6,572 nucleotides of DNA from NCBI GenBank assembly GCA_016188625.1, contig JACPHL010000317.1, positions 1 to 6,572 of the forward strand. The letters run 5' to 3'. The notes below the pieces were generated by a model that searched no databases, was not told the DNA's origin, and saw nothing but the letters and a program-made list of their open reading frames with translations. This DNA comes from Candidatus Rokuibacteriota bacterium. GTDB lineage: Bacteria > Methylomirabilota > Methylomirabilia > Rokubacteriales > JACPHL01. The position numbers and the translations under genes are program-made. Positions 1,668 through 6,322 of this stretch are shown piece by piece (position 1 is the first letter of the stretch; the number at the start of each line of letters is the position of its first letter).

Positions 1668-3665
1668 ATGGTCGAGCTGCCGTTCCTGCGCGACCTCGTC
1701 CTCCTGCTCCTCCTCTCGCTCGGGATCGCCCTGGTCTTCCAGCGGCTCCGGCAGCCGCCCGTCGTCGGGTTCCTGGCCGCCGGCGTCGTCCTCGGTCCCC
1801 ACGGCCTCTCCCTGGTGCGCGACGTCCACCAGGTGGAGCTCCTGGCCGAGGTGGGGGTGATCCTGCTCCTCTTCACGCTGGGCCTGGAGTTCTCGCTGGC
1901 GGCCCTGGCCCAGCTCCGCCGGCAGGTCCTCGTGGGCGGCGGCCTCCAGGTGACCCTCACGATGCTCCTCACGGTGCCGGTGGCGCTGGCCCTCGGCGGC
2001 GGGCGCCAGGCGGTGCTGATCGGGGGGCTCGTGGCGCTGTCGAGCACCGTCATCGTCTTCAAGCTCCTGGCCGACCGGGGCGAGGTGGACACCCCGTACG
2101 GGCGCGCGGCGGTCGGGATCCTCCTCTTCCAGGACCTCCTCGTGATCCCGATGATGCTGGGCGTCCAGCTCCTGGCCGGCGTGGTGGACCTCGGGACCCG
2201 GGCCGCCCTCTGGTACCTGACGGGGGGCCTCCTCCTGGTGGCGGGCATCCTCGTGGCCGCCCGCTGGGTGATCCCGCGCCTCCTGGAAGAGGTCGTCCGG
2301 ACCCGCCGGCGGGAGCTCTTCGTGCTGACGGTCATGCTGATCTGTCTCGGGACCGCCTGGGCGACCAACCGGGTCGGCCTCTCCCTGGCGCTGGGCGCGT
2401 TCCTGGCCGGCGTCGCGGTCTCGGAGAGCGAGTACGGCGCCCAGGCGCTGGCCGATGTCCTGCCCCTCCGGGACACCTTCTCGAGCCTGTTCTTCATCTC
2501 CATCGGGATGCTTCTCGACGTCGGCTTCGTCCTCGGGCACCCGGTGCTGGTGGGCGGGGCGGTGGTGCTCGTCCTGGCGCTCAAGCTCGTCACCGGGGTC
2601 GCGGCGGTCTGGGCCCTCGGGCTCGGGCTCCGGCCGGCGGTGCTGGCCGGGTTCGCCGTGGCCCAGGTGGGCGAGTTCTCCTTCGTCCTGGCCCAGGCGG
2701 GGGTCGCCGCCCGGCTGCTCGGCGCCGACCTCTACCAGGTCTTCCTCGGCGTGGCGGTCACCACCATGTTCGCCACGCCGTTCCTGCTCGCGGCCGCCGG
2801 GCCCCTGGGGGACCGGCTGCTCGCGACGCCGCTGCCGGGGTGGGTGCGGGGGCGCCGGGCGCCCGGCCCGCCGGTCGCGGAGCTCCCCCGCGACCACGTG
2901 GTGATCGCCGGCTACGGCCTGAACGGGTCGAACCTCGCCCGCGTGCTCCGCGCGGTGGAGATCCCCTACCTGATCCTGGACACGAACCCGGAGCGGGTCT
3001 GGGCGGCCCGGGCCGCGGGGGAGCCGATCGAGTACGGCGACGTGGCCCGCCGTGAGGTCCTGGAGCACCTGGGGCTCGACCGGGCGCGCGCCCTCGTGGT
3101 GGCGATCTCCGACCCCGCCGCCACGCGCCGCGCGGTGGCCGTCGCCCGGGCCGGGTGGCCGCGCCTGACCGTCGTCGCCCGGACGCGCTACCTGGGGGAG
3201 GTCGAGGAGCTCTACCGGCTGGGCGCCAGCGAGGTGGTCCCCGAGGAGTTCGAGACCTCCATCGAGATCTTCGCCAAGGTCCTGGCCACCTACGACGTGC
3301 CGCGCACGGTCATCGCCCAGCAGATCGAGCAGGTGCGGCGGGAGCACTACGCGGTCTGGCGCGACCTCGACCTCTCCGCCCACCGCCTCGGCCGGCTCCG
3401 GACCATGCTGGCCGGGCTCGACGTGGACACCTACCGGGTGACCGGGGACTCCTTCGCCCGCGGCAAGTCGCTGGCCGAGCTGGACCTCCGCCGCCTCTCC
3501 GGCGCCGTGGTGATCGCCCGGGTCCGGGACGGGGCCGCCCTGCCCAACCCCGGCGGGGACGTGACGGTGGAGCCGGGAGACACCCTGGTGCTCCTCGGGA
3601 CCAACGCGGAGGTGGAGCGCGCCGCGGCGCTCCTCGGCCAGGGCCCGACCGCGCCCTCGCCGTGA
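1668..3665 (+). CDS. KefB/KefC-type monovalent cation:proton antiporter (CPA2) with RCK domain
   Basis: This inner-membrane protein of 665 residues should exchange K+ or Na+ for protons. The first ~385 residues contain about 12-13 hydrophobic helices. CPA2 hallmarks include SSTVIVFKLL (from residue 125), FQDLLVIP with the Gln155-Asp156 pair in the ion-binding helix (the Q-D form seen in Kef-type transporters rather than the D-D of NapA/NhaA types), GAFLAGVAVSESEYGAQ, and LFFISIGMLLD. A cytoplasmic TrkA-N/RCK domain starts near residue 409, with the Rossmann loop GYGLNG at 415-420 and the ribose-binding acidic Asp438. A TrkA-C domain occupies roughly residues 585-660. The protein has the full length and domain order of KefB/KefC homologues. 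No KefF/KefG-like ancillary gene is nearby, so glutathione gating is not supported. The TANNNT hexamer upstream suggests its own leaderless promoter. The transported ion is uncertain; the family call is firm. Confidence 0.93.
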   Translation: MVELPFLRDLVLLLLLSLGIALVFQRLRQPPVVGFLAAGVVLGPHGLSLVRDVHQVELLAEVGVILLLFTLGLEFSLAALAQLRRQVLVGGGLQVTLTMLLTVPVALALGGGRQAVLIGGLVALSSTVIVFKLLADRGEVDTPYGRAAVGILLFQDLLVIPMMLGVQLLAGVVDLGTRAALWYLTGGLLLVAGILVAARWVIPRLLEEVVRTRRRELFVLTVMLICLGTAWATNRVGLSLALGAFLAGVAVSESEYGAQALADVLPLRDTFSSLFFISIGMLLDVGFVLGHPVLVGGAVVLVLALKLVTGVAAVWALGLGLRPAVLAGFAVAQVGEFSFVLAQAGVAARLLGADLYQVFLGVAVTTMFATPFLLAAAGPLGDRLLATPLPGWVRGRRAPGPPVAELPRDHVVIAGYGLNGSNLARVLRAVEIPYLILDTNPERVWAARAAGEPIEYGDVARREVLEHLGLDRARALVVAISDPAATRRAVAVARAGWPRLTVVARTRYLGEVEELYRLGASEVVPEEFETSIEIFAKVLATYDVPRTVIAQQIEQVRREHYAVWRDLDLSAHRLGRLRTMLAGLDVDTYRVTGDSFARGKSLAELDLRRLSGAVVIARVRDGAALPNPGGDVTVEPGDTLVLLGTNAEVERAAALLGQGPTAPSP

Positions 3666-3750: not shown

Positions 3751-5211
3751 ATGGGACGCCCCGTCTCCCGCGCCCGGCGGGCTCCCGTCCCCCCTGCGGG
3801 GCCGGGGTCTCACCGCCTTGTCTTTGACCGAGGCTCCCTCCGCCTCGAGGCGCCCCGGAGCGCGGCCGTCCCGCCCTACCTCGCCTGGGACGACCGCGTG
3901 CACGCCTGGCGGACCGAGGCCTTCCACCACCCCCGGCTCCGGGAGGAGGCGGCCGCCTACCGGCTGAGCCTCCAGGACGAGGCCCCGCGCTTCTTCGACT
4001 GCCCGCGACTCCATCCGAGCCTCCCCGCGCTCCGCCCGGACCAGGAGGCCGCGGTCCAGGCCTGGGAGCGGGCCGGCGGCCGCGGGGTCGTCGTCAAGCC
4101 CACGGGCACGGGGAAGACCGAGATCGCGCTCGCGATCATCGCCCGCCATCGGGTCTCGACCCTCATCGTCGCCCCCCTGCGCGACCTCATGTACCAGTGG
4201 CAGCGGCGCATCCGGCAGGCCCTCGGGGCCGAGGCGGGCATCCTCGGCGATGGCCGGCGCGAGGTCTGGCCGCTCACCGTCACGACCTACGACAGCGCCT
4301 GGATCCACATGAAGGAGATCGGCAACCGCTACCGGCTCATCGTGTACGACGAGGCCCACCACCTGCCGGGCCCGAGCCTCCACGAGAGCGCCCTCGACTC
4401 CCTGGCCCCCCTGCGCCTGGGTCTCACCGCGACCCCCTGGCGCGCCGACGGCCGCGACCGCCTCCTGGCCGACCTCATCGGGCCGGTCGTCTACGAGGAG
4501 GACATCGCCGCGGCCCGGGGGCGGACGCTGGCCGACTACACCATCGTCCGGGTCCCGATCTACCTGACGGACGCCGAGCAGGCGGAGTTCGACGCCCTCT
4601 CCCGGAGGATCCGGGCGTACGTGGCGGCCCGCCGGCGCGAGGACCCGACCTTCGCGTGGGAGGACCTGACGCGGCTCTCCCGGGCCGACCCCGAGGCCAA
4701 GGAGGTCTTCCGCTGCTGGCGCCGCAAGCTGACCCTCACCCACCGCTCGGCGGAGAAGCTCCGCGTGGTCGAGGACATCCTCCGTCTCCACGCCGGCGAG
4801 CAGTGCGTGATCTTCACCGCCTCGAACCGGATGGCGCTCGATGTCTCCGCGCGGTTCCTGATCCCCGCCCTGACCGCCCACTCGGATAAGCGCGAGCGGA
4901 ACGCGGTCCTCGATGCCTTCGCCCGGGGGGAGATCCGGGTTCTGGCCGCGTGCGAGGTCCTGAACGAGGGGTGGGACGCGCCGGCCGTCAAAGTCGGGGT
5001 GGTGCTCGGGGGGGAGAAAGGGGTGCGCGAGGCGGTGCAGCGTCTGGGACGCTTGCTCCGCCGCTCGGGGGACCGCGCGGCCCGTCTCTACGAGGTCGTG
5101 GTCCAGGAAAGCCCCGACCTGGCCCGGGCGCGGCGGCGGGGCCGGAGCCATGCTTACCAAAGCGCACCGCGTCTATCGGTGGATCAGGCCCGGCAGCTCG
5201 ATCTTTTTTGA
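3751..5211 (+). CDS. XPB/Rad25-like SF2 DNA helicase, partner of Bax1
   Basis: This 486-residue DNA-dependent ATPase/helicase is probably used in DNA repair with the nuclease encoded downstream. A short N-terminal domain (residues ~18-85, beginning LVFDRGSLRLE) resembles the damage-recognition-like domain of archaeal XPB. Helicase motifs are Walker A PTGTGKT (117-123), Ia LIVAPLRDL, DEAH box (200-203), motif III TAT (226-228), GWDAP of motif V (407-411) and QRLGRLLRR of motif VI (from 430), the last typical of XPB. A helical, basic insert at ~273-325 sits where the XPB thumb lies. The RED motif that follows motif III in XPB reads RAD (231-233). The protein ends in QLDLF (482-486), matching the bacterial sliding-clamp binding pentapeptide. 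ATG 3751 is chosen because of the promoter-like hexamer upstream. The last 62 bases overlap the nuclease gene in another frame. It could be read as a generic DEAD/DEAH helicase, but the neighbour makes XPB the better name. Confidence 0.88.
   Translation: MGRPVSRARRAPVPPAGPGSHRLVFDRGSLRLEAPRSAAVPPYLAWDDRVHAWRTEAFHHPRLREEAAAYRLSLQDEAPRFFDCPRLHPSLPALRPDQEAAVQAWERAGGRGVVVKPTGTGKTEIALAIIARHRVSTLIVAPLRDLMYQWQRRIRQALGAEAGILGDGRREVWPLTVTTYDSAWIHMKEIGNRYRLIVYDEAHHLPGPSLHESALDSLAPLRLGLTATPWRADGRDRLLADLIGPVVYEEDIAAARGRTLADYTIVRVPIYLTDAEQAEFDALSRRIRAYVAARRREDPTFAWEDLTRLSRADPEAKEVFRCWRRKLTLTHRSAEKLRVVEDILRLHAGEQCVIFTASNRMALDVSARFLIPALTAHSDKRERNAVLDAFARGEIRVLAACEVLNEGWDAPAVKVGVVLGGEKGVREAVQRLGRLLRRSGDRAARLYEVVVQESPDLARARRRGRSHAYQSAPRLSVDQARQLDLF
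5150..5211 (+). other. 62-nt helicase/nuclease gene overlap with T6 run and TTTTGAC at the helicase stop
   Basis: Two frames are used here: the helicase tail ending QLDLF-stop and the nuclease N-terminus through IFFD. At the end, codons CTT TTT TGA (5203-5211) are followed by C. A tRNA on TTT (5206-5208) can re-pair perfectly on TTT (5207-5209) after a +1 slip, then reads GAC (5210-5212), which is Asp21 of the nuclease. The T6 run (5204-5209) is unusual in this GC-rich DNA. No Shine-Dalgarno-like stimulator lies close upstream, unlike prfB. The overlap is certain; frameshifting is a hypothesis. Confidence 0.5.
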
Positions 5212-6322
5212 CCGGCTGGAGGACGACTGCCTCTCCCACCTGGCCCGGGCGATCGAGGTCTACCGCGTGCGGGTCGGCCAGGCCCTCGGCCAGGTCCGCA
5301 ACGCCGCCCGCCAGGCGCTGGAAGGGCTCCGGCCGGACCGGGTGGAGGCGATCGTCGAGCTGCTGGACGGGGTCGCCGGTTACGAGTGGCCGCGGGGCCC
5401 CTGGCAGGCCGAGCGCCGCGTCCGGGTCTTCGTCGCCGCGGCCCGCGAGCACCCCGTCCTCGACCCGGGGCGGGCGGAGGCCCTCCTGGCGGCCCACCTC
5501 GACCCGCCCCTCGAGCGCAGTGACGAGGTCGTGGCGGCGCTCTACGCCGACTACCCGGAGTTTCACCGCCTGAGCGCCTTCCCGGCCGGATACACCGCCG
5601 AGGACCTCCGGGCCGACTACGACCTGGGCCAGGCCCAGGCCCTCCTCTACGACGCGACGCGCGTGGTCGTGGAGGCCCGCGCCGACTTCACGCACATCCT
5701 CCGCTACGCGCACCTCGCCCGCCTGCTCCACCGGATCGAGCGCCTCGATGGTGGCTACCGGCTCGTCCTCGACGGGCCGAACTCGGTCCTCCGCCAGACC
5801 CGGGCCTACGGGGTGGACTTCGCCCGGTTCCTGGCCGCCCTGGTGCAGGCCCGCGACTGGCTGATGGCGGCGGAGATCGTCCTGAGGAAGGGGTGGCGGC
5901 CGGTCACCTTCACGCTGTCGGCCGCCGAGGGCCTCCGCTCCCGCGTCCCGGCCCCGGCCTTCTTCGACTCGCGGCTCGAGGAGGCCCTCGCGCGGACGTT
6001 CGGGGACGAGCGGGACGGCTGGCGACTCGCGCGGGAGGGGGCGATCCTGGAGGCGGGGGATGCCGTCCTCGTGCCGGACTTCCTCTTCACCCATGCCGAC
6101 GGGACCGAGGTGGCGCTGGAGATCCTGGGCTACTGGACCCCGGAGTACCTCCGGGACAAGCTCGCGCGGCTCGGGCGCGTGCGGGCGCCGAACCTCCTGG
6201 TCGCCGTGCCGGCGGCCCGCGCCCTCGCCCCCGGCGCCGTCCCGGCCCCCGTCCTCCCGTTCCGGAGCCGGATCAAGCCCAGCGACCTGCTGCCGCGCCT
6301 CGAAGCGTTCCGCCGCCGCTGA
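5150..6322 (+). CDS. DUF790 / Bax1-type nuclease (XPB-associated)
   Basis: This 390-residue protein resembles DUF790, the family of archaeal Bax1, an endonuclease that binds XPB and cuts bubble/fork DNA in a proposed excision-repair role. The N-terminus (MLTKAHRVYRW, then SSIFFDRLEDD and a long helix) matches where the family usually starts, supporting ATG 5150 despite its overlap with the helicase. The middle contains the family-like YGVDFARFLAALVQARDW region (~222-239). The C-terminal part looks like a PD-(D/E)XK core: helix SRLEEALARTF, then PDF (Pro309-Asp310), then LEILGYW with Glu324, and YLRDKL with Lys337. The usual lysine two residues after the glutamate is Leu326, so Lys337 may replace it. 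The ribosome-binding site is weak (GGAG 5144-5147, two bases from ATG), suggesting translation is coupled to the helicase. Length is normal for the family. Family call good; substrate inferred from archaeal homologues. Confidence 0.87.
   Translation: MLTKAHRVYRWIRPGSSIFFDRLEDDCLSHLARAIEVYRVRVGQALGQVRNAARQALEGLRPDRVEAIVELLDGVAGYEWPRGPWQAERRVRVFVAAAREHPVLDPGRAEALLAAHLDPPLERSDEVVAALYADYPEFHRLSAFPAGYTAEDLRADYDLGQAQALLYDATRVVVEARADFTHILRYAHLARLLHRIERLDGGYRLVLDGPNSVLRQTRAYGVDFARFLAALVQARDWLMAAEIVLRKGWRPVTFTLSAAEGLRSRVPAPAFFDSRLEEALARTFGDERDGWRLAREGAILEAGDAVLVPDFLFTHADGTEVALEILGYWTPEYLRDKLARLGRVRAPNLLVAVPAARALAPGAVPAPVLPFRSRIKPSDLLPRLEAFRRR

Follow-up and report, generated by a model that had tools for sequence, protein, structure and literature searches.

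The XPB-like helicase encoded in the window, the 6,572-nucleotide stretch of DNA analysed here, ends in the pentapeptide QLDLF, which, judging from sequence, is probably (roughly 80%) a working binding motif for the bacterial sliding clamp DnaN (beta clamp). This tag suggests that a helicase-nuclease pair is tied to the bacterial replication clamp. The helicase, an SF2 protein of 486 residues encoded on the forward strand at positions 3751-5211, beyond a KefB/KefC-type antiporter gene (1668-3665), consists of a damage-recognition domain, two RecA-like domains and a clade-specific C-terminal tail. It matched the Pfam families XPB_DRD (PF18458; 9.1e-10, above the cut-off), ResIII (9e-22) and Helicase_C (1e-13) and, in phmmer searches, archaeal XPB crystal structures (5tnu, E 4e-84; also 6p66 and 2fwr); its score against the NCBIfam equivalog NF045503, 151.7 bits, is below the cut-off of 610. 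The adjacent gene on the same strand, 5150-6322 (ATG at 5150, stop at 6322), encodes a Bax1/DUF790 nuclease, the partner of XPB, as indicated by matches to DUF790 in Pfam (E 3e-71), to Bax1 in NCBIfam (1e-31) and to a solved Bax1 chain (6p4f_B, 2e-26). Together, the matches of the two neighbours identify them as an XPB-Bax1 pair. An anti-phage defence helicase was considered and rejected, as PbeA (7e-49, best stretch 187-455) and others gave only partial matches in the helicase domains. The nuclease had zero matches among anti-phage defence families, and a search for a viral relative, which would point to phage origin, found none.

The C terminus of the helicase reads ...RLSVDQARQLDLF, and the tail peptide carrying the motif is APRLSVDQARQLDLF. 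Residues 482-486 are encoded by CAG CTC GAT CTT TTT at 5194-5208, preceded by the codon of R481 (5191-5193) and followed by TGA at 5209-5211, so that the motif with its stop occupies 5194-5211 of the forward strand. This direct reading of the codons bears out the initial annotation, which had matched the last five residues to the clamp-binding consensus QL[S/D]LF. A pre-motif segment, APRLSVDQAR (residues about 472-481; 5164-5193, forward strand), runs past the point at which sister XPBs stop. The nuclease gene is read in the +1 frame relative to XPB and shares its first 62 nt with the XPB gene, stop codon included, so that the motif bases are also nuclease-coding; the overlap (5150-5211, forward strand) holds the XPB tail and nuclease residues 1-20, and the bases of QLDLF double as nuclease residues 15-20. 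The 2.6-Mb genome contains a single CAR-YTN-NNN-YTN-TTY-TRR site, the one at the XPB end, and all relatives keep the motif save for L and G variants, so a chance origin of QLDLF was rejected.

In an AlphaFold2 monomer model (18-sequence alignment) the mean pLDDT of XPB was 84.9, with most of the body at 80-97 and some loop blocks at 59-79. The tail scored about 73 at residues 471-480 and about 64 at 481-486, which fits an exposed, flexible XPB end, though as a model value it is no proof of one. The extreme C-terminal position and the lower pLDDT are compatible with the earlier picture of an exposed, probably disordered tail, but in the model a short helix (477-482) leaves the tail only partly disordered. 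At its very end the XPB gene of the window also reads CTT TTT TGA C (5203-5212), a six-T run in a context prone to +1 slippage. The +1 frame here is that of the nuclease, and a slip would yield an XPB-Bax1 fusion from residue 21; the run is not conserved, being found in the window alone, and relatives end in CTC TTC TGA C or CTC TGA C.

To collect close relatives, we scanned GTDB contigs and searched whole genomes related to the window's own, which is 84% complete, as well as genomes of a second lineage. The set comprised 17 close homologues in 16 genomes, with protein identities to the window XPB of 74-84%. Of these, 14 end in QLDLF, two in QLDLL (L006, L007) and one, with Gly at position 2, in QGDLF (L079, genome G181); all 17 fit Q-x-x-L-[FL]. 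In one genome (G036) there are two XPB copies that closely resemble each other, on separate contigs (L033 and L177; C137 and C111), and both end in QLDLF. Loss of the pentapeptide in close homologues, which the initial annotation had named as a reason to abandon its reading, was therefore not what we found. In the alignment of C termini that it had called for, the pentapeptide is conserved and the residue directly before it varies (R, K, Q or N); the flank further upstream is conserved as well, the tails reading RLS[LV]xQAx-QLDL[FL] with few exceptions. As the upstream R-L-S and Q-A are also kept, the selected unit may exceed five residues.

To place the motif among XPBs at large we used 67 distinct XPB C-terminal halves, 51 of them from outside the clade. 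None of the 51 had Q[LIVMA]x[LM](x)[FL] in its last 25 residues, which rules out the motif as a general bacterial XPB feature. The earlier claim for bacterial XPB-Bax1 hence survives for one clade and not for bacterial XPB-Bax1 in general: by these sequence comparisons, the motif is confined to a clade of uncultured bacteria made up of Rokubacteriales and a second lineage, whose genomes carry the label 'Bacillota' or 'bacterium'. The clade is split from sister XPBs with 100/100 tree support. Within it the tree interleaves the two lineages, suggesting horizontal transfer between them, although one-clade tests did not reject (AU p 0.055 and 0.082). Some Rokubacteriales also carry a remoter XPB-DUF790 pair (L043, L045, L047, L048), with XPBs about 37-38% identical that end in SSGQL or RSAQL, without the clamp motif; one genome (G025) has both kinds of pair. 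One XPB from the same class but a different family (L040) ends in QQESALLF over the start of its nuclease gene, a hydrophobic, non-canonical end that was left out of the counts.

The whole motif lies within the overlap, and a conserved nuclease N terminus could leave the XPB frame merely to spell QLDLF over nuclease codons. Inside the overlap third-position change is suppressed in both frames, and over the motif itself XPB-silent sites are slow (4 events in 5 codons). Nuclease Ile18 never varies, which fixes part of the D-L spelling. The nuclease-silent sites, however, are near-frozen over the motif, with 2 third-position events in 5 codons (across 321 five-codon windows elsewhere the count never falls below 6 and its median is 19), and become free right past the XPB stop, where the first three nuclease codons show 5, 4 and 3 events. 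Outside the overlap, fourfold sites with invariant first two bases were invariant in 0 of 51 cases in the nuclease and 0 of 59 in XPB (14 distinct sequences). Changes within the motif, small as the counts are, also ran in the direction expected of XPB-level constraint: 4 of 10 possible XPB-silent, nuclease-changing substitutions were seen, as against 1 of 15 that change XPB and are silent in the nuclease. In the window, two XPB-silent changes converted Ser-Ser of the nuclease to Phe-Phe and left QLDLF intact.

Comparison with sister XPB-DUF790 pairs (Planctomycetota, Aminicenantes; XPBs about 42-50% identical) points the same way. Most share the +1 overlap at the DAY/MLT site, yet their XPBs stop about nine residues earlier (DAY-ERTVHRRV; HRR[VIL] or similar) and lack the clamp motif, and their nucleases mostly retain a Pro before DRL that clade nucleases do not. 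Counted before D[RC]L, this Pro is present in 28 of 32 sisters and 0 of 16 clade members, which have Ser or Phe instead (L006 reads IFSDRL at the site); the nuclease thus departs from its family exactly at the motif. We also enumerated the XPB-frame readings of given nuclease peptides at local codon usage. For peptides of the xSSISSD type the probability of QLDLF-stop is about 1e-5, and that of any Q-[LIVM]-x-[LM]-[FL]-stop about 4e-4 to 7e-4; for the window peptide, GSSIFFD, the values are 5e-4 and 9e-3. L-F-stop is spelled by two nuclease Ser codons, and most clade members use TCT at both, a rare codon that makes up 1.8% of Ser codons outside the overlap. The nuclease frame therefore fails to account for QLDLF on silent sites, direction of change, displacement of the Pro and enumeration alike; we rejected the by-product explanation on these grounds and regard it as very unlikely. 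This agrees with the earlier remark that the motif is kept although its bases also encode the nuclease, and disposes of the overlap-only explanation put forward with it. As read from these substitution patterns, both frames are under selection across the motif. Event counts within 15 nt are small; what carries weight is that the motif stands out against the sequence around it and that independent tests agree.

Constraint at the level of RNA or translation, such as coupling or low structure in early codons, is common at the start of genes, and the overlap covers the first 20 nuclease codons, so the DNA might be frozen for this reason. The suppression, however, ends sharply at the XPB stop and does not fade along the nuclease gene, where the motif occupies a stretch 45-59 nt from the start. 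We consider this explanation extremely improbable.

We then asked how well the peptide suits DnaN. The natural DnaN-binding consensus is Q-aliphatic-x-[LM]-[FL], with Phe or Leu allowed last, and QLDLF has been reported as the strongest clamp-binding pentapeptide (PMC11139829). The XPB motif fits this consensus, and other constraints do not account for the extent of its conservation. Substitutions at position 2 are tolerated at some cost in binding (PMC11139829), and Gly there, as in G181, weakens binding by the consensus peptide. DnaE carries QTGLF in G181 and G150 and QGSLF in G036, which makes QGDLF plausible as a clamp motif. DinB proteins of the clade genomes contain internal motifs of the same kind, namely QLDLF (G150, G025), QLSLF (G037, G039), QLSLL (G036, G053) and QLLLF (G149). 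In the window's genome, sampled by family and pattern searches, the single DinB had no visible motif, and none was seen in the DnaE fragment, which is cut by a contig end. A scan of 13 clade genomes for QLxLF-stop returned the XPB site in every genome with a QLDLF-ending XPB and few other genes, two of them DNA polymerases of family B ending in QLTLF and QLSLF. An open reading frame of G025 (L185, 232-1515) ends in QLALF and has, by eye, a PHP-like N terminus with no Pfam match; it could be another clamp client.

A search of nine genomes yielded DnaN itself in eight; it is 28-37% identical to the E. coli protein. Pocket residues R152, L155, T172, G174, R176, L177, P242, V247, N320, V360 and P363 are as in E. 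coli in all eight, R246 and S346 differ in all eight, and H175, Y323, V344 and M362 differ in some. With the motif shared with classes of clamp client and the DnaN pocket intact, the initial reading of QLDLF as a clamp motif on a bacterial XPB is supported at the sequence level. Because the RLS[LV]xQA flank is conserved too, constraint extends beyond the five residues, and the longer unit could have a different ligand; the tail, QLDLF included, might be a docking peptide for Bax1 or another clade-specific partner, consistent with its co-occurrence with an altered nuclease N terminus. Sister-lineage Bax1 proteins, however, manage without such a tail, the residues fit the clamp motif position by position, down to the Phe/Leu exchange permitted at its end, and polymerases that are clamp clients in clade genomes carry the same peptide. 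Docking to a partner other than DnaN is thus unlikely, and a DnaN-binding motif remains our preferred reading.

As to origin, we lean slightly towards a de novo clamp motif that arose by overprinting. The ancestral stop would have been lost and XPB extended by about nine residues, past the sister stop, into the alternative frame of nuclease-coding bases, with the nuclease losing its family-typical proline; selection would then have kept a canonical clamp motif at the end of the tail as a DnaN-docking peptide, wiring a helicase-nuclease of archaeal/eukaryotic type into the bacterial replisome. The exposed C-terminal peptide may dock in the DnaN cleft, where subsite II would receive Gln and Leu and subsite I the Leu-Phe pair. 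If the two proteins associate as archaeal XPB and Bax1 do, a clamp peptide at the end of XPB would deliver both enzymes to DnaN. Docking would tether XPB to a clamp that trails the replisome or sits next to it, with Bax1 attached to the C-terminal half of the helicase. At that place XPB could open damaged DNA for incision by Bax1, and a clamp-bound polymerase could fill the resulting gap. We infer these steps, namely XPB-DnaN binding, Bax1 recruitment and the repair step served, from the sequences.

XPB-Bax1 has been studied as a stand-alone archaeal helicase-nuclease, and we found no paper in the open-access PubMed Central literature that connects the sliding clamp with XPB from a bacterium. 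What is new here is an XPB-Bax1 variant with a clamp-motif tail, confined to Rokubacteriales and a single further lineage. If the reading is right, a clamp tether would put XPB-Bax1 in replication-coupled repair. The pair also illustrates clearly how a short linear interaction motif can be maintained where two genes overlap, and here the constraint on each frame can be demonstrated separately.

The archaeal XPB-Bax1 complexes of Archaeoglobus fulgidus and Sulfurisphaera tokodaii (6p66, 6p4o, 6p4f, 6p4w) belong to the same families and match nearly the whole helicase; they form a physical heterodimer through the ThM/HD2 of XPB (PMC7293015). The window pair differs from them in its bacterial host, which has DnaN and not PCNA, in the 62-nt overlap and in the QLDLF tail; a clamp-like tail was likewise absent from one haloarchaeal and one Deinococcus XPB that we translated. 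The proposed mode of binding resembles that of the Pol II and Pol IV tails, in which a C-terminal motif docks in the DnaN cleft (PMC11139829), although those proteins are polymerases and XPB is a helicase. RecBCD on the E. coli beta clamp is likewise a helicase-nuclease tied to DnaN by a short motif, QVEMEF of RecB, which binds the clamp with a Kd of 2 uM (PMC13254535). It is an unrelated enzyme that acts at Chi sites and uses an internal RecB hexapeptide, in contrast to the C-terminal pentapeptide of XPB, and so provides a precedent, outside the XPB family, for a clamp-tethered helicase-nuclease.
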